Part shown: piece after piece, positions 1,430 through 42,940 of the stretch
How positions within the stretch are numbered: the stretch's first letter is position 1
Layout of the letters: every line of letters begins with the position of its first letter
NCBI GenBank assembly: GCA_013152435.1
Contig: JAADGJ010000079.1
Span: forward strand, 1-42,940
Direction of reading: 5' to 3'
DNA: 42,940 nt
Source: Chloroflexota bacterium
Lineage (GTDB): Bacteria; Chloroflexota; Anaerolineae; DUEN01
Notes under the pieces: model-generated
Databases searched by the model: none
What the model was told of the DNA's origin: nothing
Seen by the model: the letters and a program-made list of their open reading frames with translations, nothing else
Program-made: the position numbers and the translations under genes

Positions 1430-3034
1430 CTATTCCGTGTCGTGCCTCTTGGTTCCATCGTGGCTGTAATAGTAGTAGCCATATCCGATCTCGCGCGGCG
1501 GCACGCGGTTCAACAGCGCCCCGATCACCCGGGCGTTGACCTGGCTCAAGCTCTCCGTCGCCTTTCTCGCCGCATCCCGGCGGGTCACGCCTGCGTCCAA
1601 CACCAGCAGCACGCCGTCGACACGGGTGGCCAGGATGATCGCATCCGATAGAGCCGTGACAGGCGGGCTGTCCAGCAGCAGGATGTCCGCTTGATCACGG
1701 AGCTGTTCCAGTAAGCGTTGCATGCGCTCCGAGTCGAGTAGCTCGGCGGGATTGGGGGGAAGCGGCCCCGACGTAAGAACCCACAGCCCGGGCACGGCGG
1801 TCTCCCTCAGAGCGTCGTCCAGACGCGGCTGGTCATCGAGCAACATGCTGGTCACCCCGACGTTATTCCGCAATCCGAAGAGGCGATGCAGTTGCGGTCG
1901 GTGCAGATCCGCGTCGATGAGGATGACCCTCCGGCCAGATTGGGCCAGCGCGATGCCCAGGTTGGCTACGGTGAGGGATTTGCCCTCCGTGGGGAGAGGG
2001 CTCGTGATCAATAGCGAGCGCAGTGGCTGGCTCACAGCCATGAATTGCAGGTTCGTGCGCAGCACGCGATAGGATTCCGCGATGGCCGATTGCCCGTTGG
2101 ATAGCAGGGGCAGCTGATCCTCAAGTGAGGCGTTATGCTTCATCTTGGGGACCATGGCCAGCGTCGCGAGCCCGAGGGTCTTCTTCACATCCTCGGCGTT
2201 CTTCAGCGTGTCATCCAGGTATTCGAGCAGATAGGCGGCTCCCGCGGCCAGAACGAAGCCGAGGGCCGCTGCCATCAGGATGGTCGCCTTCTTGTTAGGG
2301 CCGATAGGTCGTGTGGGTAGCGAGGCCGGCTCCAGGATGCTGATGGCGTTTGTGGCGCCGCTGGGAAGCTGTGCCAGCAAGTCCGCGTACGTGCGGCGCA
2401 GCGTGTTGAGCTTGTTCTGCAGGGCCGTGATCTGTCCTTCAAGGTCAGCGATCTGGCGAGCGCTGAACGCCTGGGCCAGCTCGTCCTGCCGTTTGGTGAG
2501 CTCCGCTTCAGTCTCGGCGATAGCCGCTTCGATCTTGGTGAGTTGTTGATTGATGAACTCGCGATGTTCCTCGATAACCCCGTTGGAGTTGGTCGGGCTC
2601 ATCCGAACCAGCTGGTTGGCCAGTTCGCTGGCCACCGCCTGGGCCCGTTCCGGGCTGATGTCGATGACGGTAATCTCCAGCAGGTTCGTGTTGGGAATGG
2701 CTCGCACGTGATACTCCGGCAGCCAGGGCAGCCCCAACGCCTTCATGGTCGCGTTGCGGATCGGCTCGCGCTGGGCGATATCTGCGTAGGCTGCCGCCAG
2801 TTGTCGGGTCAGATACAGCTCGTTGCTGCTCGGGTTGGGATCCTGGATAGGACGCCCCACCATCAGGGTGGTGCGCGCACGGTAAACCGGCGGCTGTTGT
2901 TTTGTGGCCATATAGCTGGAGATCGTGGCCACAAGGGTAGCCGCTACGATCAGCCACCACCATTTGAGCAGGGGGGCAATATACTCTTTCAATTCCATAG
3001 AATCACCCGTCGAGGGGGCGTGAGCATTGGTCAT
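1430..3034 (-). CDS. Wzc/CpsD-type polysaccharide co-polymerase with tyrosine kinase domain
   Basis: 534 residues joining a Wzz chain-length domain to a bacterial tyrosine kinase. Membrane helices lie at about 24-42 and 250-271 and enclose an extracytoplasmic coiled-coil region (about 155-225). After the linker IAESYRVLRTNLQF (318-331) come Walker A SPLPTEGKS (345-353), Walker A' VILIDADLHRP (370-380) and Walker B ILLLDSP (451-457). A C-terminal tyrosine cluster YGYYYY (518-523) is the expected autophosphorylation tail. Such proteins set chain length and regulate Wzy-dependent export. Walker A has Leu-Pro-Thr where Pro-Gly is common. An in-frame Met13 (MELKEYI) is an equally plausible start. 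The gene lies downstream of dispersed repeat copy 1. Confidence 0.92.
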   Translation of the reverse strand: MTNAHAPSTGDSMELKEYIAPLLKWWWLIVAATLVATISSYMATKQQPPVYRARTTLMVGRPIQDPNPSSNELYLTRQLAAAYADIAQREPIRNATMKALGLPWLPEYHVRAIPNTNLLEITVIDISPERAQAVASELANQLVRMSPTNSNGVIEEHREFINQQLTKIEAAIAETEAELTKRQDELAQAFSARQIADLEGQITALQNKLNTLRRTYADLLAQLPSGATNAISILEPASLPTRPIGPNKKATILMAAALGFVLAAGAAYLLEYLDDTLKNAEDVKKTLGLATLAMVPKMKHNASLEDQLPLLSNGQSAIAESYRVLRTNLQFMAVSQPLRSLLITSPLPTEGKSLTVANLGIALAQSGRRVILIDADLHRPQLHRLFGLRNNVGVTSMLLDDQPRLDDALRETAVPGLWVLTSGPLPPNPAELLDSERMQRLLEQLRDQADILLLDSPPVTALSDAIILATRVDGVLLVLDAGVTRRDAARKATESLSQVNARVIGALLNRVPPREIGYGYYYYSHDGTKRHDTE

Positions 3035-3541: not shown

Positions 3542-5893
3542 TTATTTGACCCAGACCGGGTCCCAATCGTTGTAGGGGGAGTCAAGCAGCCGGCGCTGGT
3601 TGCTTCCGTCCGCGTTCATTATCCATAGTTGGCGCCGCCCCGTTTCCCGGTTGGACCAGAAGACGATTTGGGTGCCGTCGGGTGACCAGGAGGGGTGCTT
3701 GTCCCACTCCCAGCTGTTCACCGTTAGACGGCGCAAGTCGCTTCCATCCGGGCGGATGGTGTAAATCTCGTCGTTGCCGGGCTCCGTGGAGACGAAGGCG
3801 ATGCGGTCGCCGAGCGGTGACCATACGGGGTCGTAGCTCCATCCAGTGGTAAAAGTCAGCTGGCGCGTCGTGTTGAACTGGTTGTCCCGTATGTACACCT
3901 GCGGCACGCGGCTGTCCTCCACCAGGCGCTCCTGCACCAGGAGCGTGAAGCGACCGTCCGGTGATCGGAACTCTTGGGCCCGGGCGGCTTGGTAAAGCCA
4001 TCCCTGGGTGAGATAGGCTAGTCTCCCCGTGGCGGGATCCAGGGCGAAGATCCGAGGTTCGCCGGCGCGGTCGCTGAAGAACAGAATCTTGCCGACCAAT
4101 TCGCGTGGCATGGTGGCCGGAATCGTGGCCGTCGGCGTCGGTGGCGGGGTCGGCGTCAACCTGTCCAGGTATAACAGCAGGGGCAGGGGAGTCGCCGTCG
4201 CCGCGTTGGGCGGCAGGGGGGTGAACGTGCCCGTGGTCATGGCGACCGCCGTGGCGTAGGCCGCGATCGCCCGGGCTGTGGCGGCGTTGGCGGGCGTGGG
4301 CGTGCTGGTGATGACGAAGAGCGTCGGTGTGGGCGTCGCGATCACCGCGTTGTAGGGCAGCGGCGTCGGCGTGCCAAATCGCTTGGCCCTGGCCGTGGCT
4401 GTCACCAGCTGGGCTGCCGCTGTAAGCGCGTTCTGTGGCACGGGCGTGGGCAGAATGATCACCGGCGTGACCGCCCCCTCCGGCGTCGGCGTGAAGGTGC
4501 CCGTTGTGATCGCGATGGCGGTAGCGCGAGCCGCGTAGGCGGTCGCCGTGGCGGCATTGGCGGGCGTGGGCGTGCTGGGCACGATGGGAGGTAATCCCTG
4601 GATCCAGGCCAGGGCCTGGGCTGTGGCCAGGTTGGCCGGGATCGGGGTGGGTGTGACGATGTTCCCCGGGACAGGCGTATAGGTTCCTGTGGTCACGGCG
4701 ACAGCGGTGGCCGTTAGCGCTCGCGCGGCCGCCGTCAGCACGTTGGCTGGTGTGGGAGTAAGCGTGGCCACGATCACGGGTAGGGTGGGAAGCGGCGGTG
4801 GAGTGGCCGGTGCGGGTCCCAGGTTGAGTATGAGCCGTGGTGCCTCACCCAGACTGGCCGGTCCCGCGCCGCTGTCCCAGGCGAAAAGGGTGTCCTGTCC
4901 ACCGGTTGGCCCGATGATCCTGACGATCACCTCGGTGGCGCCATCTGCAATTTGCTGTTCCAGCCACTGAACGGTCGAGCGGTCAAGCGACCAGCTATTG
5001 ATTTTCCCGACCTTCAGGTCCTTGGGTTCGAGAGAAGGAAATAGCGTAACGGCGGCGGGAGCGTTGAATAACTCCTGGAAGTCCGCGCGGGCGAAGTCCG
5101 CCAGGGCATCAACGGCCAGCATCTGCACGGACCATGTGCCGGGAGCTCCCCTGTCCAGCCTGTCCGCTTGCAACCCGGTCAATTGCAGGATCCCGCCGTG
5201 AATGGGCGCCCCGCGCGGCACGCGACTCAAGTCGAAGCGAATCGCGGAGACGAAGACCTGGCCGTCGAAGTATCCGGCATAAAGGAAGGAGTCGCCCAGG
5301 TGGTTGTGCCGACGATCGTTGCTGGCCCACCAACCCACGTCTCCCGACCGGGGGGTGATGCTCAGGATCTGGCCGCCGGGTTCGGGTGTAGGTGTGGTGG
5401 GCCGGGTGGCTGTGGAAGTGAAGGTGGGCGTGGATGTTGGCGTGAATGTAGGAGTGGGCGGGACTTCAACCGGCGTTGGCGTAGCGGCCTGAGCTGGATT
5501 GGAGGAGGATGGCCCCATAGGTGTGATGGGAACCGTGGTGATGGCGGGCGTTGCCGTTGGTAGAAGGGCGGTCAGCCCGGGCGTCGCCCATCCTTGTCCG
5601 TAGACCAGGACAGCGGCAGCTATGAAAACCGCCAGAAGGGCGGCGAGGAAGGTGAACGCCTGGGGACGGCGTCGGGTAGGAGGCGTCTGCGGGTTGATCT
5701 CCTCTGGCGAAACATAGTACGGGCAATCGGTATGAGCTCGCGCCAGACAGTAAGCCTGCTGGTGCGATTCATCCGGTGTCCCGGGAGGTGTCTGTGCATA
5801 GCAGCGATGCGCCGCATCCGGTGCGGCCCACGCCAGCGTTCGATCAGATACCAGCCCCAAATGGGGACAGGTGGATGGAGCGATTCGAGGCAT
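3542..5893 (-). CDS. Membrane-anchored surface protein: Cys/His N-terminus, DNRLRE-like domain, Thr/Pro repeats, TolB-like propeller
   Basis: 783 residues. Residues 1-60 are cytoplasmic-looking with ordered Cys/His (C9, H11, H29, C31, H44, C49, C57), which could bind metal. One membrane helix follows at about 79-98, so the rest is probably outside the cell. About 175-340 resembles a DNRLRE/CBM-like beta domain (DSFLYAGYFDG, VSAIRFDLSRVP). About 370-590 is an unusual low-complexity array of Ala/Thr helices (TPTPANAATATAYAARATAI) alternating with TTGTxTPxP. The last 190 residues are TolB/PD40-like propeller blades (DPVWSPLGDRIAFVS, HPSWSPDGTQIVFWS). Function is unknown; surface or matrix binding is likely. 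It is transcribed divergently from the small lipoprotein at 6010. Confidence 0.82.
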   Translation of the reverse strand: MPRIAPSTCPHLGLVSDRTLAWAAPDAAHRCYAQTPPGTPDESHQQAYCLARAHTDCPYYVSPEEINPQTPPTRRRPQAFTFLAALLAVFIAAAVLVYGQGWATPGLTALLPTATPAITTVPITPMGPSSSNPAQAATPTPVEVPPTPTFTPTSTPTFTSTATRPTTPTPEPGGQILSITPRSGDVGWWASNDRRHNHLGDSFLYAGYFDGQVFVSAIRFDLSRVPRGAPIHGGILQLTGLQADRLDRGAPGTWSVQMLAVDALADFARADFQELFNAPAAVTLFPSLEPKDLKVGKINSWSLDRSTVQWLEQQIADGATEVIVRIIGPTGGQDTLFAWDSGAGPASLGEAPRLILNLGPAPATPPPLPTLPVIVATLTPTPANVLTAAARALTATAVAVTTGTYTPVPGNIVTPTPIPANLATAQALAWIQGLPPIVPSTPTPANAATATAYAARATAIAITTGTFTPTPEGAVTPVIILPTPVPQNALTAAAQLVTATARAKRFGTPTPLPYNAVIATPTPTLFVITSTPTPANAATARAIAAYATAVAMTTGTFTPLPPNAATATPLPLLLYLDRLTPTPPPTPTATIPATMPRELVGKILFFSDRAGEPRIFALDPATGRLAYLTQGWLYQAARAQEFRSPDGRFTLLVQERLVEDSRVPQVYIRDNQFNTTRQLTFTTGWSYDPVWSPLGDRIAFVSTEPGNDEIYTIRPDGSDLRRLTVNSWEWDKHPSWSPDGTQIVFWSNRETGRRQLWIMNADGSNQRRLLDSPYNDWDPVWVK

Positions 5894-6819: not shown

Positions 6820-8190
6820 TCAGTTTTGGACCGCCGGGAGATAGGACCGGTATCGGGCCCGCATGGCCGTCAGGCGGATCTCTTGGGCCCGTGCCAGTAC
6901 GGAGCGTCCCTGATAGGTCACGTCGCTGCGATATGGTTTGAAGGAGCTCAGGGTGATCCTCATATCCGGCGTGGCCTGAATCACCTGGAAGGTGATACGC
7001 GCCAGGGTGAAGGTGCCGGAGGCGGTGCTGTCCAGGAGCCCGGCGGCGTAGTGTACGCGCCCATCGGCGTTGTCGAACTCGTTCTGGAGGATCGTGCCGA
7101 GGGCGGTGCCCGGCGTGACCGACAGGACGCGTAGAGCGCTGGGGTCGAAGACGAGATAGGCTGCTGCCGCATCCACCGGCTGGGCGCCAGCCTGCACCTG
7201 GAGGATGAGGTCGAAGACCTGCCCGGCCACCAGATGGCGGACCGTGGGGATCGCCGCCAGGGTTACGCTGGGTTCGGGAATGCTCGTCTGTCCGCTGCCC
7301 ACATCCTCCACGAGCTGATCGCCGGATTCGCCGAAGTTCATCGCCAAAAGCGAGAAGTCCAGCAAGTCCACGCAAGCGTCCTCGTTGAGATCCGCTCGAT
7401 CGTCGAACCCGGACACGTTCTGACATTTTGCGAAGGCGGCGGCCAGGAGGGAGAAGTCCAGGATGTCGATCGCGTTGTCATCGTTGATATCTCCCTCTTG
7501 TAGCTCACCCAGGTATACGAGGTTCACCCCGCTGGTGAGCGTGACCACACGCCGGTTCCGCAGGGTGTGGCGATTCTTCACCCGTATGTCGTAGGTGCCC
7601 GGAAGCAAACCCGTCAGGGTGAGCTGGCCTCGATCGGAGGCGGTGGAAGCGAAGGTGTAACGAGGGCTGGACTCCCCTGGGACGGTGAGGCTGATGGAGA
7701 GATGGGCACGCCAGCGCTCATGAGGGGCGGGTGGGCGGCCTTGCAGCTGTATCTGCCCCTGGAGGGTGGCATCGCCGATGGCGATGGTTGCGCCCGCCGT
7801 GCGCTGGAGGACGGAACTGCCGTGCAGTGTGATGTCGCTGCGGCGGGGGTCTTGGGTGGAGAAGGTGATGGATGTCCCCGTTGTCCCGCTGGTGGCCTGG
7901 AAGGCGATCTGTGCCAGGGTGAAGGTACCGGATGTGGTGCTGCCCAGGAGCCCGGCGGCGTAGTTGATCCGGCCGTTGGCGTTGTCGAAGTCATTCTGAA
8001 TGGTGGTGTTGAGGGTGGATCCAGGAGTGATGGATACCACCTGGAGCACGGCGGGATCGAAATCCAGGTAAGCGGCGGCGCCGTCCACGAGTTGGGCGTT
8101 GGCTCGGACCTGCACGGTGAGGGTGAACGTCTCCCCCGCGGTCACGGTGAGGCTCGTCGGTGTGACGATAAGGGCGACCTGGGAGCCGTC
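6820..8190 (-). repeat. Duplicated C-terminal coding module, copy A
   Basis: The 3' end of this gene from the Thr/Pro linker onward parallels 10880-12270 domain for domain and is very similar in DNA. For example, the stretch near 7714-7772 differs from 11806-11864 at only about six positions. This indicates duplication of the linker/cohesin/dockerin/cohesin tail, perhaps kept similar by gene conversion. Similarity drops toward the second cohesin. Confidence 0.75.
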
Positions 8191-10818
8191 GATCGTAGGC
8201 GTGGGCGTGGGTGTAGGCGTGGATGTAGGAACAGGCGTTGGGGTGGGGGGCGAAGTGGGCGTGGAGGTAGGCGTGGGCGTCGGCGTTGACGTCGGGGTCG
8301 CCGTCGGTGTAGGAGTAGGGGTGGAGATCGCCGAGGTCGATCGGTAGATCTTCACCGCCATGTCTGTCCCCAGGGCGTTGACGGTGAAGGAGAGCGTTCC
8401 ATCGGCGCCCACGGTGTAGGTGCTTGTGCCCGTCACTGTGCCGGTGTATGTGTCCCACCACTCGGCCGTGTAAGTGCCCTGCGGCAACCCCTGGATCGTC
8501 AGATCGCCGCTCACAGGGGAGATCGAGGCCCCGTTTGCCACGTTCCGCCATGTGTGATTGGCATTGTCGATCCAGAGCAGCACGCGACCCGTCTGGGCGT
8601 CTCGCACGCCCCATGCGCGCAGCCTGCCCGTGGGATCCCCCGTCACCAGTACCTGGGCGCTTCCTTGCAGGTCCGTGCCGATCTCTTCGTAGCTCCCGTT
8701 GTTCAGCGGCTCCCCTTGCATGAAGCGCTCATAGGTGCCGTAGATGGCCCAAAGTGCCTCATTCTCGCCGGTGTTCGTGGACAGGAAGAGCCGCGGGTAC
8801 CACTCGCCGTCGCATGTATATCCGAGCGATCCCACATGGGCCCATAGCTTCTTGTGGTAATAAACGACCTTATGCTCATAGCTCCCCTGCGGCGTGTCGG
8901 AGGAGAGATCGGGATGCTGGGGTTGGGTGCTGGATTGTGCGACCCCTCCCTCCCCGCGCAGGATCGGCTTGTTGTAGTTGAACTGTTGCTTGTATTCTCG
9001 GAATCTCTGCCAGCATTCCCGTACGTATGCGGCGGAATCCGTCCATACGTTGCTGATCAGCTCACAGGATGATCCGCTATCGTTGCAGGACGCCCCGGTC
9101 TCATTGGCGTACCAATGTTTATCCGCATAGTCCAGCAGGTGCCCTCGCTGTGGATCGGTCCAGAAGCTCTCGACGAACCAGCCCCAGAAGGAGTTGGACA
9201 CCAGGAGGGGGCGAGGGGATATCTGGTGGACGAATTCGGCGAAGGCAAACCCCGCCTCGTAGCTCTCCGTGGTCAAGTGGTTCTCGTTGGCCAGCTCCAC
9301 GGAGTGTAGGGCTGTTGAGTAAGACCATCGGGCGATGAAGTAACGCGTATATGCCCGCTGATACCAACGAGATGCCTGCCCATCGGCCGAGTAGAAGTTC
9401 CTGCTGTACGAGGCGGGATCTCCGATCGTCCCGTCCGGCTGGAAGCGATTGAGCACCGCATCGTTCTTATGGAAGAGCGGAAGCTTATGGTAGACGCCAT
9501 ATTGCTCGGAGAGTCGGAAGATCTCGTCGAGCTTCGCCGCGTCTACCTGATCTACATAATTGTAGGTGTCGGGATCGGACCGGCTGAGGAGGTTGGGCCC
9601 CCATCCGCCGTTCCCCGTCTCGTCCCGTTGGAGTCGGATGGAGTGCATCCGGATGCTGCCGGGCTGCACGTTGTTGTAGGGGCTCTTGGCGTCCGTGCTG
9701 ACGTATAGGCCTCGCAGGTAGACCGAGATCGTAGGGGCGTTCACGGTGTTGGTGTACGTCAGCGTATAGTCGTGCCATCCGTCTTGCTTATAATCGCAGG
9801 AGTCGTTGTTGCCGTTCGACTCGTGATAGGTGCTCGTGCTGGAGCAGATGTCGATCCTCGTCCCGTTGATCTCCGCGCGCAGCACTCGTTCTCCGGTGAC
9901 TTTCGCCCGGAAGGTCAGCCTGTACGTCGCCCCCGGCACGGCGGGGATGGTTTGCCCGCTATAGTAGTAAGGGCGGAAACTGAATCGTTTGCCGGATGCC
10001 GTATCCACGTCGTCGGTAAAGATGTTCGACGCTCCGAACTTCCAGGACACGCGGAGGGTATCGCCAAAGGGGATGACGAAGTAATTCGCCCCCTCGCCGG
10101 TGGGGAACCAACGGACGAATTTGATCCCGTTCTCCCCCATCTTCCGGATGTTCGTCCGGATGCGATACAGGCTGTTGAAAGGGTTTCCCTGTTCGATGTT
10201 GATCAGGGGATAGGGGAATGGCGACCCGTCGGAGAACTCGAAGGATTGCGGCTCCGTGGCGCTCACACGGACGAAGCCCTTGCGGTTGGAGTCCACGCAG
10301 GTGAACTCATAGGTGGGCGTCTCGGTCGTGCCGCCGGCGTCGGTGGCGCGGATCTTATATTGCCAGGTGCCGACGATGTCCGGTGTGAATCGGCATCGCC
10401 ACTCCGGTTCGCCTACGGGCAGCAGGGCGATATTGGATCCGCTGCCCACTTCTTCAACCGGTTGGTAGTAGAAGCACGGTAGGACCCTGGCGTTTGCCCA
10501 GTTCGTTTCCCCCGGGGCGAGGAATAGCGCGTCCACGGTGATGCCGGTCCCGCTCTCGACCCCGGGAGGCGTGTTTTCGTCATACGGGAAGTACATGTTC
10601 GTGGCGGTCGTATTGGTGATATCAAAAGAGATCTCGAACTTGGCGTACTTCTCGATCGGGCCAGGTGTTTGAATGGTGACCGTGCTGATGGTGGGGCCTG
10701 CGGCGATGGCGTTCGTTGGCGTGTCCTGCGCAGGGGCCGCCGGAGCGGCCTCAACCAGCCCCATGGTGATGATACCTATGATCAGTACTCCTAGTGTGAG
10801 TACCTGTATTCGTCTCAT
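6820..10818 (-). CDS. Secreted DUF5060/GH-like protein with cohesin, dockerin, cohesin tail
   Basis: 1332 residues. Signal peptide about 1-28. Residues 42-185 resemble DUF5060, an N-terminal domain of some clan-A glycoside hydrolases. The next section looks like a TIM-barrel hydrolase interrupted by a carbohydrate-binding-like beta domain (about 280-400). VELANENH (507-514) gives an Asn-Glu acid/base candidate and PILRGEGG (618-625) a Glu nucleophile candidate. A Thr/Pro linker (about 830-875) leads to a cohesin-like domain (880-1010), a beta domain, a dockerin with two intact Ca loops (GDINDDNAIDILDF and ADLNEDACVDLLDF, about 1107-1164), a second cohesin-like domain and the ending YRSYLPAVQN. 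It probably acts on an extracellular polysaccharide, perhaps the locus's own. Substrate unknown. Confidence 0.82.
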   Translation of the reverse strand: MRRIQVLTLGVLIIGIITMGLVEAAPAAPAQDTPTNAIAAGPTISTVTIQTPGPIEKYAKFEISFDITNTTATNMYFPYDENTPPGVESGTGITVDALFLAPGETNWANARVLPCFYYQPVEEVGSGSNIALLPVGEPEWRCRFTPDIVGTWQYKIRATDAGGTTETPTYEFTCVDSNRKGFVRVSATEPQSFEFSDGSPFPYPLINIEQGNPFNSLYRIRTNIRKMGENGIKFVRWFPTGEGANYFVIPFGDTLRVSWKFGASNIFTDDVDTASGKRFSFRPYYYSGQTIPAVPGATYRLTFRAKVTGERVLRAEINGTRIDICSSTSTYHESNGNNDSCDYKQDGWHDYTLTYTNTVNAPTISVYLRGLYVSTDAKSPYNNVQPGSIRMHSIRLQRDETGNGGWGPNLLSRSDPDTYNYVDQVDAAKLDEIFRLSEQYGVYHKLPLFHKNDAVLNRFQPDGTIGDPASYSRNFYSADGQASRWYQRAYTRYFIARWSYSTALHSVELANENHLTTESYEAGFAFAEFVHQISPRPLLVSNSFWGWFVESFWTDPQRGHLLDYADKHWYANETGASCNDSGSSCELISNVWTDSAAYVRECWQRFREYKQQFNYNKPILRGEGGVAQSSTQPQHPDLSSDTPQGSYEHKVVYYHKKLWAHVGSLGYTCDGEWYPRLFLSTNTGENEALWAIYGTYERFMQGEPLNNGSYEEIGTDLQGSAQVLVTGDPTGRLRAWGVRDAQTGRVLLWIDNANHTWRNVANGASISPVSGDLTIQGLPQGTYTAEWWDTYTGTVTGTSTYTVGADGTLSFTVNALGTDMAVKIYRSTSAISTPTPTPTATPTSTPTPTPTSTPTSPPTPTPVPTSTPTPTPTPTIDGSQVALIVTPTSLTVTAGETFTLTVQVRANAQLVDGAAAYLDFDPAVLQVVSITPGSTLNTTIQNDFDNANGRINYAAGLLGSTTSGTFTLAQIAFQATSGTTGTSITFSTQDPRRSDITLHGSSVLQRTAGATIAIGDATLQGQIQLQGRPPAPHERWRAHLSISLTVPGESSPRYTFASTASDRGQLTLTGLLPGTYDIRVKNRHTLRNRRVVTLTSGVNLVYLGELQEGDINDDNAIDILDFSLLAAAFAKCQNVSGFDDRADLNEDACVDLLDFSLLAMNFGESGDQLVEDVGSGQTSIPEPSVTLAAIPTVRHLVAGQVFDLILQVQAGAQPVDAAAAYLVFDPSALRVLSVTPGTALGTILQNEFDNADGRVHYAAGLLDSTASGTFTLARITFQVIQATPDMRITLSSFKPYRSDVTYQGRSVLARAQEIRLTAMRARYRSYLPAVQN

Positions 10819-10879
10819 TTCAAGAACCTCTCGCCTCAGGATCTTCCGTTGGGTTGTCCTGAAGGTGTTGCTTTGCGTG

Positions 10880-12270
10880 TTACCGCCCGATGGCGGGCAG
10901 GTAGGATCGGTATCGGATTTGAGCCGTCGTCAGGGTGCCATCCTGGGCTTGTGCCAGCACGGACCATCCCATCGAGCTTACATCGGTCTCGTGGGAATCC
11001 GTGGCTGTGAGCCGGATGGCGGTATCGGCGGCCTCACCGACCACTCGGAATGTGATATGCGCCAGAGCGAACCGGCCGGATGTCTGTTCGCCTAGCAGGC
11101 CGGCCGCGTAGCGCGCCCATCCGGCTGTGTTGTCGAACTCGCTCTGGATCACCGTGCTCAGCGTTTCCCCGGGTGTGATAGACTCCACCTGGAGCACGTC
11201 GGGGTCGAACTGGATGTAGGCCGTTGCCCCATCGATCGGCTGCTCGTTCGCCTCCACAGCGATCGTGGCCCCGATGGTCTGCCCCACCCAGGCGAATGGC
11301 GCGTCCGGCACGATGGACAGGCGAGCCGTTCGCGACGGGAGATCCATCCGATCGGCCGAGCGGCCTTGCCCTGTCGCACCGGACTGGCCACTGCCGGAGT
11401 TTTGCACCACGATATCACCGGTCTTTCCGAAGTTCATGGCCAGCAGCGAGAAATCGAGCAGGTTGGTGCATCCATCCTCGTTAAAGTCGACCTGGCTGTT
11501 GTATCCTGTGTCACCCTGGCATTGGGCAAAGGCTCCTGCGAGGAGCGAGAAGTCCAGGATGTTCACAGCGTTGTCGTTGTTGGCATCCCCTTCTGACAGC
11601 TCGCCCAGATGCAAGACGTTTACCCCCGGATTCAAGGTGGCCGTGAGCAGGTTCTGCAACGTATGGGTGTTCTTGACCCGTATCTCGTAGGTTCCCGGCG
11701 AGATGCTGCCGATCGTGAGGCCTCCCTGATCCGAGGTGGTGGTCGTGAAGGTGTAACGCGGTGTGGTTTCACCAGGGATCGTCAGCTTTACGGACAGGTT
11801 GACGCGCCAGCGCTCGTGAGGGGCGGGCGGGCGTCCTTGCAGTTGGATCTGCCCCTGGAGGGTGGCCGTGGCGACGGTGATGGTGGCCCCTTCGGCGGCC
11901 TGGAGAACCGAGGTCCCTTGCAGCGTGATGTCGCTGCGGCGCGGGGCCTGGGTAGCGAAGGAGATGGTTGTAGAAGCCGCCTCCTGGATCGCCTGGAAGG
12001 CCACCTGTGCCAGTGTAAAGGTGCCCGAGGCTGTGTTGCCCAGCAGCCCAGCGGCGTAGTTCACCTGGCCGGTCGCGTTATCGAAGTCGTTCTGGATGAT
12101 GGTGCTCAGGGTTGTGCCGGGCGTAATCGATACCACGCGCAGGATGGAAGGGTCGAAGTCCAGAAATGCCGCTGCGCCGTCCACGGGCTGTGGGCCTGCC
12201 TGGATCTGCACGGTGAGGGTGAATACCTCGCCGGTGGCAACGGTGAGGGAAGCCGGTACGATGGCAAGCG
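10880..12270 (-). repeat. Duplicated C-terminal coding module, copy B
   Basis: Partner of 6820-8190. Shared landmarks in both proteins are NYAAGLLG, RRSDITL, LQGQIQLQGRPPAPHERW, RVKN.HTL, NILDFSLLA or DILDFSLLA, LLDFSLLAMNFG and RYRSYLPA. The N-terminal catalytic parts are unrelated, so the tail is a swappable cassette. Confidence 0.75.
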
Positions 12271-14965
12271 TTACCGGGACGTCCGTAGGTGTTGGCGTAG
12301 GCGTTGGTGTGGGCGTAGGCGGCGGTGTCGGTGTGGCCGTGGGCGTCGGCGTATTCGTCGGCACAGGCGTGGGTGTGGGCGTGGGCAGGCTGACGCCATT
12401 GAAGATGGGAAGTGTGACCCAACTGTAGCCTCGATATGCTTTAATGGTCTCCGCGAGCTTGTGGATGTAGTACAGGTCGCCACGCTCCATCCATGGGATA
12501 TCCAGGTAGGAGGCCAGCGCATCGGGAGACTCGTGGAGGATCCAGGCCCGGGCGAGGAAGATCTGATAGGACATCTCAGGGATGGCGTAATTGTTCTCCT
12601 GCCCGAGCGTTTGTCGGCCGAACGCGAGATACCAGTCGGGCATGTTCTCGGCCACCCGATCCACGAATGTGCGGGCCCAAAGGCGGCTCTCCGGCCGGTC
12701 GGAGAGGAATCGGGCCAGTTCCGGCACCAGGCCGATATAGGGGAGCACCCCCTGGCCGTACCCCGGATGGATGATGTCATCGAAGCGGACCCCGAACTGG
12801 TTCAGATTGGCCACGCTGCGGACGTCGTGTTCCGGCCCCGTCCAGTTGTAGGTGTACAGGCGCCCGATCCAACTTCTTTCGAGATATCGCACCATCCAGT
12901 CGGCGCGACCCGCGATGTAGTCGGCTCTGCCGTACTGGTCGAAGGGCACGGTGCGGCCGTTCGCGTATCTTCGATACATGACCCGGCCGTACTGATCAAG
13001 CCATCCGCTTTCCGTGGGCAAAACGATGAAGTCGCGATTGTGGAGATAGAAGGAGTATCTCTCCAGGGCATATCGGAAGATGGCAGCTTTTGCAAATGTG
13101 CCCCATAGCAGAGGGATCCCTTCGACATCGTTGGCCTGATAGGCCAGCCTGAGGGCGCCTACGAGCCCCGCGAAGTGTTTGTTCGCGTCGATGATCCCTC
13201 CCCATCCATCGAACAGGCCGGTGCGATTCCCCGGGCATGTTCTCAGATCGCCATTGGGCCATTGATACCATCCAAGCGTGGCCCAGTCTTGTTGATAGAG
13301 ATAGGGGTAGAGGATCGTCCTGATGGTAGACCAATTCTGTGCGACGGAGGTATCTCCGGTCTCCCTCGCGTATTCCGAGAGGTAGTAAAGGGTCTCCTCT
13401 GGGATAAGGTTGTTGACTTTGTAATGATTGATCCGATCAACGCAGGTGTTATGAGCCTGGACGACCTGCTGCATCTCCTCCTGATCGATTTTCCAGCGCT
13501 CTCGCCTGCTCCCCTCGTCGCTCCTCAAGACGGCGATCGATTCGGGTGGATAGTTCGTGCGCTCTTGGGTCAGGTAATTGATGAGGGCCGTTTTCTGTTG
13601 GCTGTCCAGTACGGGCAGGGCCTCGCTGAGGAAGAACAGCGTCTCGCCCGGGTGACCCCACGTGAGTCGGCCCTTGTGGAACCAGTACAGCGCGAAGCCG
13701 TTGGTCGCTGGATACCAGGGGGCGAGGTGCCCCGCGTCTAGCACCTTCTGCGTCTCGTTGCGGAGCCTTTGCGCGATCCAGGAAGGCTCTCCCGTCCCTG
13801 AGCTGGTGACTCTGGCCTCTTTGACGTATTTCCCGAGCCCTGTCACGGAGTACGTGTATTGGTCGGCTCCCTCAAATCCCACGTAGGGTCCGATCGCGGT
13901 GAACAGGTTTGTAGAGACCGGCTCTGTGGGGGTCTGGATGGGGAAGCCTTCCTCCCTGGCCAGGGCGAGCATGGGGGGCAGGGGGGCCAGCCTTGTACCC
14001 CCGCTTCGGATCGTGACGTAGTTCAAACGCCCCGTGACGGTGATCGTGTCCGTGGTCTCGTCGTAGGCGTAGGTCTCCGTAGCGGAGACGGGGACCTCTG
14101 CGAGGTGCCCGGCCCACCAGTTTGCCCTCGCGATGACGCTTTGAGGAAGCCCCGAAGTCCACTGATCCGTCTCGCCGACCAGCGGATATTTGTCCCCAAA
14201 GAGGGGAAGGATGGCGATTCGGCCCGCCTGTGAGGAGAATCGCACTTCAAGCCCGCTCGATTGCGGTGTGATGCTTACAGGAGACCGCTCAAAGATGAAC
14301 AGAATTGGTGAGTCCACAGCATACACGGGCACGGGCAGGCCGAACTGTGAGTTCCAAGGGAAGTTCGTTGACTCGAATCCTGCGCCCGAGCCGAACCAGA
14401 CGAGAAGCCAGGAACTGTTCAGACCGTCAAGCGGCAGATTCGCGATCTCAGATTGCGATACCACGCGATCCGGAGTGGCGAAGTAGCGGGGCTGTGGAGC
14501 CCCTCCGCCGAAGAACGTGATCGTCTGTGAGGTGGTCTCCGCGACCAGGGCGGGGGTCAGACGGCTGATGTAGAGCCTCAATGTGGAGGCGAAATCGACA
14601 GTGACATGTGACCAGTCGTTTTCCACCACGGTATAACCGGATGAGGAGGCTCCCGTGTATATGGTGCCAAAATCCAACGGCGGATTTTGGGGTGGAATCT
14701 GCGCTCCTGTAGTGCCGAAGGGAACGATGGTGTCGTATATGCGCGCGTTCTTCTGCAACCTGGGCCAATCCTGCAAGAGCACTTGGAATCCCAGGCCTGC
14801 GGCCTGATCGTTAAAGATGCCTTTCCCCTGTCCGTCCGCCTGGAAGTCCGGCCATCCTTGCGCGTGCGTTACGGCGTTTCCTGTCGGAAAATACCAGAAA
14901 ATGGAGCCCGCCATGAACGCCAGCAAGAAGAGCCAGATGGTCCCCTTCTTCGTTTTTCCCATCAT
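10880..14965 (-). CDS. Large secreted protein of unknown catalytic type with cohesin, dockerin, cohesin tail
   Basis: About 1361 residues. A signal peptide ends near THAQG. The first 800 residues are not assigned to a family: a beta-rich part is followed by an aromatic, helix-rich part (for example ALYWFHKGRLTWGHPGETLF and FDGWGGIIDANKHFAGLVGA) that could be an alpha/alpha toroid as in polysaccharide lyases and some hydrolases. A Thr/Pro linker then leads to a cohesin-like domain, a beta domain, a dockerin with two Ca loops (GDANNDNAVNILDF, VDFNEDGCTNLLDF), a second cohesin-like domain and the ending YRSYLPAIGR. I chose the ATG at 14965 (or the next ATG at 14962) because AGGTGG sits just upstream; a GTG at 14977 overlaps the previous stop. 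Role in extracellular polysaccharide handling is inferred. Confidence 0.8.
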   Translation of the reverse strand: MMGKTKKGTIWLFLLAFMAGSIFWYFPTGNAVTHAQGWPDFQADGQGKGIFNDQAAGLGFQVLLQDWPRLQKNARIYDTIVPFGTTGAQIPPQNPPLDFGTIYTGASSSGYTVVENDWSHVTVDFASTLRLYISRLTPALVAETTSQTITFFGGGAPQPRYFATPDRVVSQSEIANLPLDGLNSSWLLVWFGSGAGFESTNFPWNSQFGLPVPVYAVDSPILFIFERSPVSITPQSSGLEVRFSSQAGRIAILPLFGDKYPLVGETDQWTSGLPQSVIARANWWAGHLAEVPVSATETYAYDETTDTITVTGRLNYVTIRSGGTRLAPLPPMLALAREEGFPIQTPTEPVSTNLFTAIGPYVGFEGADQYTYSVTGLGKYVKEARVTSSGTGEPSWIAQRLRNETQKVLDAGHLAPWYPATNGFALYWFHKGRLTWGHPGETLFFLSEALPVLDSQQKTALINYLTQERTNYPPESIAVLRSDEGSRRERWKIDQEEMQQVVQAHNTCVDRINHYKVNNLIPEETLYYLSEYARETGDTSVAQNWSTIRTILYPYLYQQDWATLGWYQWPNGDLRTCPGNRTGLFDGWGGIIDANKHFAGLVGALRLAYQANDVEGIPLLWGTFAKAAIFRYALERYSFYLHNRDFIVLPTESGWLDQYGRVMYRRYANGRTVPFDQYGRADYIAGRADWMVRYLERSWIGRLYTYNWTGPEHDVRSVANLNQFGVRFDDIIHPGYGQGVLPYIGLVPELARFLSDRPESRLWARTFVDRVAENMPDWYLAFGRQTLGQENNYAIPEMSYQIFLARAWILHESPDALASYLDIPWMERGDLYYIHKLAETIKAYRGYSWVTLPIFNGVSLPTPTPTPVPTNTPTPTATPTPPPTPTPTPTPTPTDVPVTLAIVPASLTVATGEVFTLTVQIQAGPQPVDGAAAFLDFDPSILRVVSITPGTTLSTIIQNDFDNATGQVNYAAGLLGNTASGTFTLAQVAFQAIQEAASTTISFATQAPRRSDITLQGTSVLQAAEGATITVATATLQGQIQLQGRPPAPHERWRVNLSVKLTIPGETTPRYTFTTTTSDQGGLTIGSISPGTYEIRVKNTHTLQNLLTATLNPGVNVLHLGELSEGDANNDNAVNILDFSLLAGAFAQCQGDTGYNSQVDFNEDGCTNLLDFSLLAMNFGKTGDIVVQNSGSGQSGATGQGRSADRMDLPSRTARLSIVPDAPFAWVGQTIGATIAVEANEQPIDGATAYIQFDPDVLQVESITPGETLSTVIQSEFDNTAGWARYAAGLLGEQTSGRFALAHITFRVVGEAADTAIRLTATDSHETDVSSMGWSVLAQAQDGTLTTAQIRYRSYLPAIGR

Positions 14966-14973
14966 GGTCCACC

Positions 14974-16476
14974 TCACTGTGACGTCCAGGCCGCGATTTG
15001 ATGAAACACGATATGGTAGAAATATCCATTTGCGATCGACACGCTGTTGTTCGCGTTGTTCACGTTATCTGTCAACTGCCACCACCGTCTAGGTACATCA
15101 TTGGAGGAGAACGGATAGAACTGTCTGGTTCTCCAGTCGAATACGCCGGTCCACTGGGCGTTTGCCTCCTGGGTGTGGAAGAGATACAGGAGATCCCCTC
15201 CCACGCTGGCATTCACGTTTTCCGTGGCGTTCCCACCGCTGAAAGGTGGCGGCGGCAGGATGATGTCATCGATGAGCTGTGTCTGCAGGTTCAGCCGTCC
15301 CCATCCATAGCCGATGAAAATCCAGGGGATCACCACGCCTCCCTTCCCGTCCGCCACGGGAGGCGGCGGTGGCCCGGGAAGGGTCATCGCGTGGAAGTGC
15401 GGCGGGATAAAGGCTTGCCGCCCGTCGGATTCATTGAGGATAAATAGACTTTGCTCGTACGGATGGTCCGTGAAGTATTGGACCACGTTACTCTGGGCGT
15501 CACGGAGCTCTTGTGGCATGGGAGATCCGCCATACAGGAAATCGTTGTACTGCTGGATACGAGAGCTGTATTCCCCAGCGTTCCAGGTCCTGTTGAAGGG
15601 GGCGATGCCCTCGATGATGTTCGTCGTATGCGTCATCATCGGACGGATCATCACATATCCCTGATAGACGACCGGGTGATATTGTCGGCAGCTTTGGCCA
15701 TACAGCTTCTCGCTTCTCCACACCTCCGCGCCCGTCTGGGAGTTCAAAGCGTGTACGTACATCGCCTCGTCGCAGAAGTAGACCCGGCCGTTGTTATAGG
15801 CGGCCGTGTTCAGGATAGGCGCTCCCGCGTCGAAGCTCCATTTCTGACTTCCCGTCTCCAGGTCCAATGCGTAGAAGATGCCTGCTCGTTCGCCTATGAA
15901 GACGGTGCTCTCGGCGATCAGAGGGGCGCTTGAGAATCCGGTGTGCCCTCCCGCCTGGAATCGCCATACCAGGGCCCCCGTTGCCGTGGCGACCGCATGC
16001 ACGCTCCCGTCCAGGGTCGCGATGATCACTTTCCCGGCCTCACAGGCAGCGGTATGGAGAACCGCGCTACCGGCGTTGTATCGCCAGAGCTCCTGTCCGT
16101 TTGTCGCGTCGAGCGCGTAGAGGTTACCAGCCTCCGTCGGGACGAAGACCTTGCCGTCACAGACGATGGCCTGCACGTTGGGGCTAACCCGTTCCGGCTG
16201 GAAGTTACGGTACCAGGCCAGCTGGAAGGGGGGATTTACCGTCTCCGGTGTGTATCCCGTGCGTTGTGGATCATGTTGCAGTTGGGGCCACTCGCCCGGG
16301 GCCGCGATCTGGGTGATGCTTGTATCCGGGACGTCGGAGGCGGTCGGGGTGGCTTCTGCGTGAGCGGTGACGACGGCCTGTGTGGTGCTTGTGCTGGCGA
16401 TCGCTTGCGTGAGCGTGATCGTCAGCAAGGTCAGAATCAGGACGATCAGGAGAACGGATCGTTTGGATCGTTTCAT
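14974..16476 (-). CDS. Secreted PQQ-type beta-propeller protein
   Basis: About 500 residues. The ATG at 16476 is chosen because GAGGAG precedes it by about 8 bases and it starts a classic signal peptide (MKRSKRSVLLIVLILTLLTI). The mature protein has repeated PQQ-like blades: GNLYALDATNGQELWRYNAG, GSVHAVATATGALVWRFQAG, GIFYALDLETGSQKWSFDAG and YVHALNSQTGAEVWRS. The C-terminal 200 residues are less regular. Such propellers in secreted proteins usually bind other proteins or sugars, not PQQ itself. Its stop overlaps a GTG of the next gene, so it is probably co-translated with the cohesin-dockerin protein. Exact function unknown. Confidence 0.83.
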   Translation of the reverse strand: MKRSKRSVLLIVLILTLLTITLTQAIASTSTTQAVVTAHAEATPTASDVPDTSITQIAAPGEWPQLQHDPQRTGYTPETVNPPFQLAWYRNFQPERVSPNVQAIVCDGKVFVPTEAGNLYALDATNGQELWRYNAGSAVLHTAACEAGKVIIATLDGSVHAVATATGALVWRFQAGGHTGFSSAPLIAESTVFIGERAGIFYALDLETGSQKWSFDAGAPILNTAAYNNGRVYFCDEAMYVHALNSQTGAEVWRSEKLYGQSCRQYHPVVYQGYVMIRPMMTHTTNIIEGIAPFNRTWNAGEYSSRIQQYNDFLYGGSPMPQELRDAQSNVVQYFTDHPYEQSLFILNESDGRQAFIPPHFHAMTLPGPPPPPVADGKGGVVIPWIFIGYGWGRLNLQTQLIDDIILPPPPFSGGNATENVNASVGGDLLYLFHTQEANAQWTGVFDWRTRQFYPFSSNDVPRRWWQLTDNVNNANNSVSIANGYFYHIVFHQIAAWTSQ

Positions 16477-41415: not shown

Positions 41416-42940
41416 TCACCCGGCGGCGCGCTCGCTTGCCGCCGCGATGGGCTGCGTGTGATCGACGACCTTGAGCCGATCCCAATCGTTGAAATTCGCC
41501 GGACGGAATCTCTTGACGAACTGTTCGTACACCAGCTGGGTCGATAGGATCCCCACCAGGGCCATGTCCTCGATCTCGCTGAGCGGCCGGCCTTGTTCGG
41601 CCTTGCGTACCAGCTGAGCCACTGCGGCGGGATGGAAGAGGTGGCTCTCCTTCAACGACCGGTCCGAGAGCAGCTCACGCACGTACTCGGGCGTGGAAGG
41701 GGCGAAGAAGCTCGGGTGGATAGGGGCCCGGTAGGGTTGTTTGGGACGTTTCCAGATGTCGTCGGGCAGAAGCTTTCTCCCCAGCTGCTTTAATAGCCAT
41801 TTCTCCGTCAGCCCTCGCAGCTTCAGCCGGGGCGGCAACCGGCTGCAGAATTCGACCACCCGATGATCGAGGAAGGGGAAGCGTCCCTCGACCGAGTGGG
41901 CCATCGCCATTCGGTCTCCCTGTGAGGAGAGCAGATATGGGGAGAGGAAGGTGACGATCTCCAGGTATTGCGCTTGCCCCAGGTGAGACCAGGATGAAAA
42001 AGATGGAGGAAGGGGGATGGGATATGTGCCCCCGTCGCCCGCGTGTGCGTCCCGTCGGTGTTGTAAGAGAAATCGACGCGCACGTCTCATGTTCATCCAG
42101 CGGATGGCATGCGAGTAGAAGGGTGAGTCGGTATCTGTCAGCCCCTTCCTGAAGAAGGCGGCCCGATAGGCGCGGCCCCCGCGGTGGAGATCGGGCACGT
42201 AAGGATAGAGGCGATCCAGCAACAGCGGGCGCATGCGGGAGTCGGGAGCTTTGGCCCAGAAGCGACGGACCTTCATCTCCTTGAAGATGTTGTATCCCGC
42301 CAGGAATTCGTCGGCGCCCTCCCCGGTGAGCACGACCTTCAGCCCGTGTTCGCGCACGAGCTGCGAGAGGAGGAACATCGGGGCTGGCGACGTTCGGAGG
42401 ATCGGGGTTTCCGTGTGCCAGATCACGTCGGGAAATACGCGCGCGATGTCCGCATACGAGCAGCGGGTGATCCGGTGGTGAGTGCCCAGGAACCGGGCCA
42501 TCGCCTCTTGATATGGGCTCTCGTCAAACGCCGGATCATCGAAGGCGATGGAGAACGTATCCAGCCGGTTATCCGTGTAATTCCGGATCAGCGCCGCCGT
42601 CACCGACGAGTCCAAACCGCCGCTCAGATAGGCGCCGACGGGCACATCAGCCCGCAGTCGGATCCGGGTGGCGTCGATGAGCAGGTCTTCGAATTCATCC
42701 AGGTACTCCTGATCGGTGCGCTGGGGGGCGTTCCCTGGCGCGAAATCGAGCTCCCAGTATGGGTGGAGGGTAAATTGCCCGTCTCGCACCTGCAGGTAAT
42801 GGGCGGGTGGGACCTCATAGATATCCCGAAACACCGTATACGGGGACAGCGTGCTCCAGAAGGTGAACACCTGCTCCAGAGAGGAGGGGGCGATCTCGGC
42901 GCTCGTGTCCGGATGGGCCAACAGCGCCTTGATCTCGGAG
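41416..42940 (-). CDS. Asparagine-synthetase-type amidotransferase (N-terminus beyond window)
   Basis: The reading frame is open to the window edge. Its first visible residues are SEIKALLAHPDTSAEI-like, the end of a glutaminase domain, so the true start is outside. The synthetase domain has SGGLDSSVTAALIRN (PPi loop), a conserved LTGEGADEFLAGYNIFKEMK, YLLSSQGDRMAMAHSVEGRF and PFLDHRVVEF, then a C-terminal KWLLKQLGRKLLPDDIWKR. These are the marks of AsnB-family enzymes that adenylate a carboxylate and transfer ammonia. In surface-polysaccharide loci such enzymes may amidate sugar acids or build other amides rather than make asparagine. Whether Cys2 is present cannot be seen here. Confidence 0.88.
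   Translation of the reverse strand, partial: SEIKALLAHPDTSAEIAPSSLEQVFTFWSTLSPYTVFRDIYEVPPAHYLQVRDGQFTLHPYWELDFAPGNAPQRTDQEYLDEFEDLLIDATRIRLRADVPVGAYLSGGLDSSVTAALIRNYTDNRLDTFSIAFDDPAFDESPYQEAMARFLGTHHRITRCSYADIARVFPDVIWHTETPILRTSPAPMFLLSQLVREHGLKVVLTGEGADEFLAGYNIFKEMKVRRFWAKAPDSRMRPLLLDRLYPYVPDLHRGGRAYRAAFFRKGLTDTDSPFYSHAIRWMNMRRARRFLLQHRRDAHAGDGGTYPIPLPPSFSSWSHLGQAQYLEIVTFLSPYLLSSQGDRMAMAHSVEGRFPFLDHRVVEFCSRLPPRLKLRGLTEKWLLKQLGRKLLPDDIWKRPKQPYRAPIHPSFFAPSTPEYVRELLSDRSLKESHLFHPAAVAQLVRKAEQGRPLSEIEDMALVGILSTQLVYEQFVKRFRPANFNDWDRLKVVDHTQPIAAASERAAG

Follow-up and report, generated by a model that had tools for sequence, protein, structure and literature searches.

The window analysed here is the whole of a 42,940 bp stretch of contig JAADGJ010000079.1 from a Chloroflexota bacterium of the class Anaerolineae (assembly GCA_013152435.1). 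Two neighbouring genes in it, P0001 and P0002, encode putatively secreted proteins that end in the same cassette of a cohesin, an X-module, a dockerin and a second cohesin. The data suggest, with a probability of roughly 0.5, that the cassette docks the partners P0001 and P0002 outside the cell in a calcium-dependent manner, as the non-covalent counterpart of a fusion. The modules themselves are known and are common in the class. What is new is the setting: two partners encoded in a polysaccharide operon each bear this docking cassette.

Cohesin (PF00963) matched two stretches of each protein in Pfam at E-values of 1.9e-18 and 1.2e-16, above the curated cut-off of 24.1 bits, and the four cohesins were matched singly in a profile search of the whole genome (28.9 to 46.7 bits). 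Dockerin_1 (PF00404) was matched at E-values of 7.6e-6 and 4.7e-6 (26.5 and 27.1 bits compared to a curated cut-off of 22.9) and the two dockerins were found separately in the whole-genome search. An earlier note on this DNA had claimed cohesin and dockerin on the same chain, twice, in adjacent genes and had proposed a hidden Markov model search with these families; the claim is borne out, with both families above their curated cut-offs in both proteins. Its statement that both dockerins keep two full calcium loops also agrees with the sequence, as aspartate or asparagine is present at positions 1, 3, 5, 9 and 12 of all four loops (20 of 20 ligand positions). The domain order that it gave, cohesin, dockerin, cohesin, is correct but overlooked an X-module of approximately 87 amino acids, which separates the first cohesin from the dockerin in both proteins. 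A profile of the X-module and dockerin spanned both modules in the solved X-dockerins 2b59_B (1.8e-9), 4wi0_B (5.5e-9) and 4u3s_B (5.8e-9), which belong to the X-module-dockerin pairs of CipA and Acetivibrio ScaA. The best solved match of the cohesin profile was the ScaB type II cohesin 3l8q (6.3e-12). By sequence the cassette is type II-like. Identity between the cassettes of P0001 and P0002 was 68% for cohesin 1, 67% for the X-module and 65% for the dockerin. The two dockerins share the putative recognition stretches ILDFSLLA and LLDFSLLAMNFG. Both dockerins (7324-7494 and 11420-11590) also contain two cysteines, of which one lies between the loops and the other within the second loop; they could form a disulfide that locks this second calcium loop. 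This cysteine pair is absent from the dockerins C43, C101 and C9 described below.

The cassette of P0002 was modelled with AlphaFold from a two-row alignment. The overall predicted local distance difference test score was 45, with values of about 70-80 over much of both cohesins; the cohesins were usable while the X-module and dockerin were without usable confidence. The top 50 PDB matches of this model in Foldseek were all cohesins (best 3l8q, 5.5e-9), and the cohesin fold, on which the earlier note had staked its claim, is therefore present. Using VIA-align, cohesin 2 aligned to 4uyq_A (Z 12.2, root mean square deviation (rmsd) 2.8, 117 residues) and cohesin 1 to 3ul4_A (Z 10.2, rmsd 3.0, 117 residues). 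The VIA-align list was occupied by cohesin 2 and the absence of other folds from it carries no meaning.

The N-terminal region of P0001 (P1N) was modelled with a predicted template modelling score of 0.64. The five best Foldseek matches were all to the glycoside hydrolase family 5 (GH5) mannanase ManDH5, the best being 9gpg (E-value 1.2e-27), and the profile of P1N matched 9gmj in the PDB (6.5e-14). A Pfam search of the whole P0001 protein gave no match to a GH5 sequence profile and only DUF5060, under its cut-off. P1N is probably a GH5/mannanase-like hydrolase, judging from the model. Two glutamates invariant in its relatives, E512 and E623, would act as acid/base and nucleophile according to the clan GH-A motif. 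For E512, the corresponding E473 of a second alignment of relatives (A4) was invariant across six rows. The N-terminal region of P0002 (P2N) has relatives in 50 of 396 genomes of the class. Its profile found no relative in Pfam or the PDB apart from the PQQ propellers to which some members are fused. The second half of P2N is probably helical.

Homologs of P2N and P1N adjoin on one strand in loci of four other genomes (L153, L154, L155 and L156). In a Thermoflexales relative (L019:2-4537) a single open reading frame (ORF) of 1,511 residues unites a P2N-like domain, a pair of repeats resembling each other but of unknown type, and a P1N-like hydrolase. Two collinear segments of P0002 aligned to it by blastp (7e-10 and 4e-8); the 4e-8 segment lies partly in the linker. 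A PQQ-type propeller is N-terminal to the P2N-like domain on the same chain in L153, L154, L155 and L128, and P0003, the third gene of the set, aligned by blastp to L153 (7e-42) and L155 (9e-38). In L158 a P0003-like C-terminus was seen by eye on the product of a separate gene lying directly upstream of the P2N ortholog. As homologs are neighbouring and fused elsewhere, P0003, P2N and P1N make up a conserved set of three parts, predicted to be secreted. The two N-terminal domains had been described as unrelated. This was correct for sequence, with a best blastp E-value of 3.8 between them, but the idea of unrelated functions was rejected on account of the adjacent (L153-L156) and fused (L019) homologs. 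In another family a P1N homolog is followed by a cohesin and an X-module, where the contig ends (L150, G153:C42), giving a second enzyme of this type joined to the cassette.

The upstream gene P0003 runs 4 nt into the start of P0002 and the gap between P0002 and P0001 is 61 nt, and because of this spacing the three genes look like one operon. P0002 has an alternative in-frame ATG start at 14965. The earlier note had ended its region at this ATG while the full ORF extends to a GTG at 14977. By direct reading, P0001 and P0002 each have a signal-peptide-like stretch at the N-terminus and a Pro/Thr linker preceding the cassette, and both proteins are predicted to be secreted. Matches of window proteins to SslE and internalin were rejected as artefacts of the Pro/Thr linker. 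The coordinates of all features are collected in Table 1.

Table 1. Features of the P0001-P0003 gene set. Positions are those of the window; amino acid (aa) ranges are those of the encoded protein.
Feature	Residues	Position	Strand	Description
P0001	1332 aa	6820..10818	-	Complete ORF, ATG start, tail YRSYLPAVQN; GH5-like, putatively secreted, C-terminal Coh-X-Doc-Coh cassette
P1N	P0001 aa 46-826	8341..10683	-	DUF5060-type beta domain, TIM barrel with inserted beta domain, C-terminal beta domain
E512 of P0001	512	9283..9285	-	Putative acid/base, ELANENHL; invariant in P1N relatives
E623 of P0001	623	8950..8952	-	Putative nucleophile, LRGEGG; invariant in P1N relatives, two alignments
P0001 cohesin 1	aa 881-1008	7795..8178	-	Pfam and genome profile search
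P0001 X-module	aa 1019-1105	7504..7764	-	X-Doc profile against 2b59_B and 4wi0_B
P0001 dockerin	aa 1109-1165	7324..7494	-	Loops DINDDNAIDILD and DLNEDACVDLLD
P0001 cohesin 2	aa 1185-1312	6883..7266	-	Genome profile search
P0002	1365 aa	10880..14977	-	Complete ORF from GTG 14977, tail YRSYLPAIGR; N-terminal region and C-terminal Coh-X-Doc-Coh
P2N	P0002 aa 36-856	12410..14872	-	Conserved family
P0002 cohesin 1	aa 902-1029	11891..12274	-	Pfam, genome profile search, fold search
P0002 X-module	aa 1040-1126	11600..11860	-	X-Doc profile
P0002 dockerin	aa 1130-1186	11420..11590	-	Loops DANNDNAVNILD and DFNEDGCTNLLD
P0002 cohesin 2	aa 1218-1345	10943..11326	-	Genome profile search, fold search
P0003		14974..16554	-	PQQ-type beta-propeller, putatively secreted

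In the proposed mechanism the P0003 propeller, P2N and the P1N hydrolase would form a secreted polysaccharide-processing set of three parts. The cassettes on P0002 and P0001 would dock in trans outside the cell, dependent on calcium, and this docking would replace the covalent fusion of P2N- and P1N-like domains seen in L019. Other proteins of the cell that bear a dockerin or a cohesin may be docked as well. As each chain offers one dockerin and two cohesins, chains or branches could arise, but a dimer would suffice. The cross-linking put forward in the earlier note is possible in principle, but its extracellular lattice exceeds the data, which point to the holding together of partners. We infer the binding, the heterotypic choice of partner and the stoichiometry from these arrangements. 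It can be suggested, tentatively, that docking in Anaerolineae is scaffoldin-free, with enzymes that bear cohesins as well as a type II-like X-dockerin on each chain polymerising into mixed chains within the exopolysaccharide. The operon would then encode a self-assembling remodelling complex with docking in place of fusion.

A number of observations weigh against docking between P0001 and P0002. The similarity of the cassettes is equally explained by a recent duplication and alone is no proof of mutual binding. Cohesin 2 of P0002 is divergent, with 44-45% identity to the other three cohesins of the window, and its specificity may be different. Homology of the L019 fusion to P2N is distant, at about 30% over the two collinear segments. 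The gene pairs of L153-L156, the L019 fusion and the propeller fusions are all without the cassette, showing that pairing can do without it. A docking module is missing from P0003, the third partner; neither cohesin nor dockerin was found in a Pfam search of this protein. Unrelated roles, such as anchoring, are also conceivable for the gene pair and the cassette.

The remaining cohesins and dockerins of this genome bear on the choice of partner. Each locus with a dockerin also supplies a cohesin, either within that gene or in the adjacent one, and chains carry two cohesins at most; for this reason the partners seem to be cis-encoded. On contig C43 the full cassette is carried by a predicted peptidase (HEIGH motif only). 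On contig C9 (L014:2290-4714) a cohesin protein and an X-dockerin protein are encoded side by side, the latter being a candidate third partner. A doubtful alternative to docking between P0001 and P0002 is that each dockerin plugs its enzyme into another cohesin of the cell surface and the cohesins take up third proteins, such as the C9 X-dockerin protein, with no direct binding of P0001 to P0002. The C9 dockerin, beside its cohesin gene, is consistent with this, having 60-61% identity to the P0001 and P0002 dockerins and the same ILDFSLLA stretches. The dockerin of a cellulosomal scaffoldin, moreover, usually binds an anchoring protein and not its own cohesins (PMC3413522). The presence of an own cohesin at every dockerin locus argues the other way. 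No SLH module was found in P0001 or P0002 in a Pfam search covering these two proteins, which also gave no match to a carbohydrate-binding module. No multi-cohesin scaffoldin was found in the genome, which has six cohesins over E 0.001 and is approximately 96% complete, leaving a small chance that one was missed.

A less likely alternative is that the dockerin closes onto a cohesin of its own chain. The resulting compact C-terminal unit would stabilise or mask the enzyme, or would open with a change in calcium or competitor. The linker between dockerin and cohesin 2 is approximately 20 residues in P0001 and 31 residues in P0002, cohesin 1 is joined through the X-module, and dockerin and cohesin on one chain recur in the class, all of which would allow such closure. 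The local domain order, however, is identical for binding in cis or in trans and the single-chain model had no usable confidence in the dockerin and X-module.

Cohesin was found in 97 and dockerin in 90 of 199 genomes of the class Anaerolineae. Profiles grown from the window recovered Coh-X-Doc-Coh eight times, Coh-Doc-Coh nine times, X-Doc-Coh and Doc-Coh eight times each and Coh-Doc 12 times, counts which include the window and hand-picked loci. The complete cassette recurs in other families behind other N-termini. Among 29 loci selected by dockerin, a cohesin shared the ORF in 14 and lay in a neighbouring ORF within approximately 1.5 kb in two more. Chance co-occurrence was rejected at 16 of 29 compared to an expected 0.4% or so. 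Mixed chains had been presented as a departure from the normal division between enzymes and scaffoldins. This view does not hold, as Acetivibrio scaffoldins also carry cohesins and a dockerin on one chain, in one case together with GH9 and in others together with a peptidase (PMC3413522, PMC5590126). The mixed chain is, on the sequences examined, a regular feature of the class. Six Anaerolineae genomes examined in 2016 had no cohesin or dockerin reported (PMC4877987). An X-dockerin-cohesin gene followed by a lone-cohesin gene was seen in C101 (L012:1092-3188), L109 and L111 and is kept in three genera of the family. A scan of viral sequences with the cassette gave a single, distant match, an X-module and dockerin (34% identity) on a 67-kb IMG/VR contig (L165:3713-4129). 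That binding has been lost and the modules persist as generic spacers or beta-sandwich repeats of Anaerolineae secreted proteins is improbable: the modules are indeed found on many proteins of the class that are not related to one another and the first calcium loop is degenerate in one other cassette (G007), but the window dockerins keep every calcium ligand, the orthologous X-Doc-Coh and Coh gene pairs are conserved across those genera and the linkage of cohesin to dockerin is far above chance.

The window is an exopolysaccharide-type cluster with genes for glycosyltransferases, a sugar transferase, a Wzy-like polymerase/ligase, a Wzt/Wzm-like ABC exporter and an acyltransferase. The earlier note had placed the pair next to a polysaccharide operon. 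Exopolysaccharide genes are present, but P0001 and P0002 are inside the run and not beside it, with a Wzc-like chain-length/kinase gene read from the sequence at 1430-3034 on one side and glycosyltransferase genes from 17403 on the other. Enzymes of exopolysaccharide clusters often trim or process the polymer. The substrate of the three-part set would be the polysaccharide of the cluster itself or one met by the cell. A Thr/Pro-rich protein with TolB-like propeller repeats (PD40) is encoded at 3542-5893, downstream of P0001 as part of the same run of genes on one strand. HPr-kinase-like and asparagine-synthase-like proteins are encoded at the two ends of the cluster (104-991 and 41416-42921). 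P0001 and P0002 finish in (Y/F)LPxxx(R/N/K) tails (6820-6852 and 10880-10912) which also end many secreted proteins here and in relatives. About a dozen cases in this genome were credible and the tail is possibly a sorting tail. Genome-wide a C-terminal YLPxxx pattern gave 56 matches compared to 42 for a permuted pattern and enrichment was not clear.

Cohesin-dockerin pairs are known mainly from cellulose breakdown. The arrangement described here poses the question of whether, without a scaffoldin, self-complementary docking can take the place of covalent fusion in bacteria. The window offers a concrete test case and may supply compact parts for designed enzyme assemblies.

For the hydrolase the closest known system is ManDH5, the DUF5060-containing GH5 beta-mannanase of Dictyoglomus (9gmj, 9gpc). 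P1N is predicted to share its fold, with template modelling scores of 0.70-0.73 over the target. Identity is approximately 15% and the inserted beta domain and the cassette belong to P1N; the expected glutamates are kept in the modelled P1N. Secreted glycoside hydrolases of Clostridium perfringens (2jh2, 2vo8, 2w1n) assemble by cohesin-dockerin binding, and 2jh2_B aligned to a modelled cohesin of the window with a Z of 12.2 and an rmsd of 2.9 over 115 residues (VIA-align). Neither a Coh-X-Doc-Coh cassette nor an X-module is known from these hydrolases. Outside cellulose degradation, chains that mix cohesin and dockerin are known from the anaerobic methanotrophic (ANME) archaea (PMC9012536), from the Planctomycetes 'planctosome' adaptor Doc-HYR-Coh (PMC6461901) and from Archaeoglobus fulgidus, whose cohesin 2xdh is a fold match to the window cohesin model. 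In these three cases the accompanying domains and the phyla are different, and a duplicated cassette on two operon partners was not described in the literature found. The many-cohesin scaffoldin with separate dockerin enzymes by which a cellulosome is recognised was not found in this genome. In Acetivibrio cellulosomes each scaffoldin has many cohesins and the dockerin enzymes are separate proteins, whereas the window has two cohesins per chain and an exopolysaccharide cluster. Among the known systems closest to the window proteins are Acetivibrio cellulolyticus ScaA (PMC3413522) and ScaO/ScaP (PMC3413522, PMC5590126), which also combine cohesins, a dockerin and a catalytic module on each chain. 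The ScaA X-dockerin was among the best solved matches to the window X-dockerin and the ScaB cohesins were the best cohesin matches. With its X-module directly N-terminal of the dockerin, the window cassette matches the type II X-dockerin arrangement of CipA and ScaA in both order and sequence.

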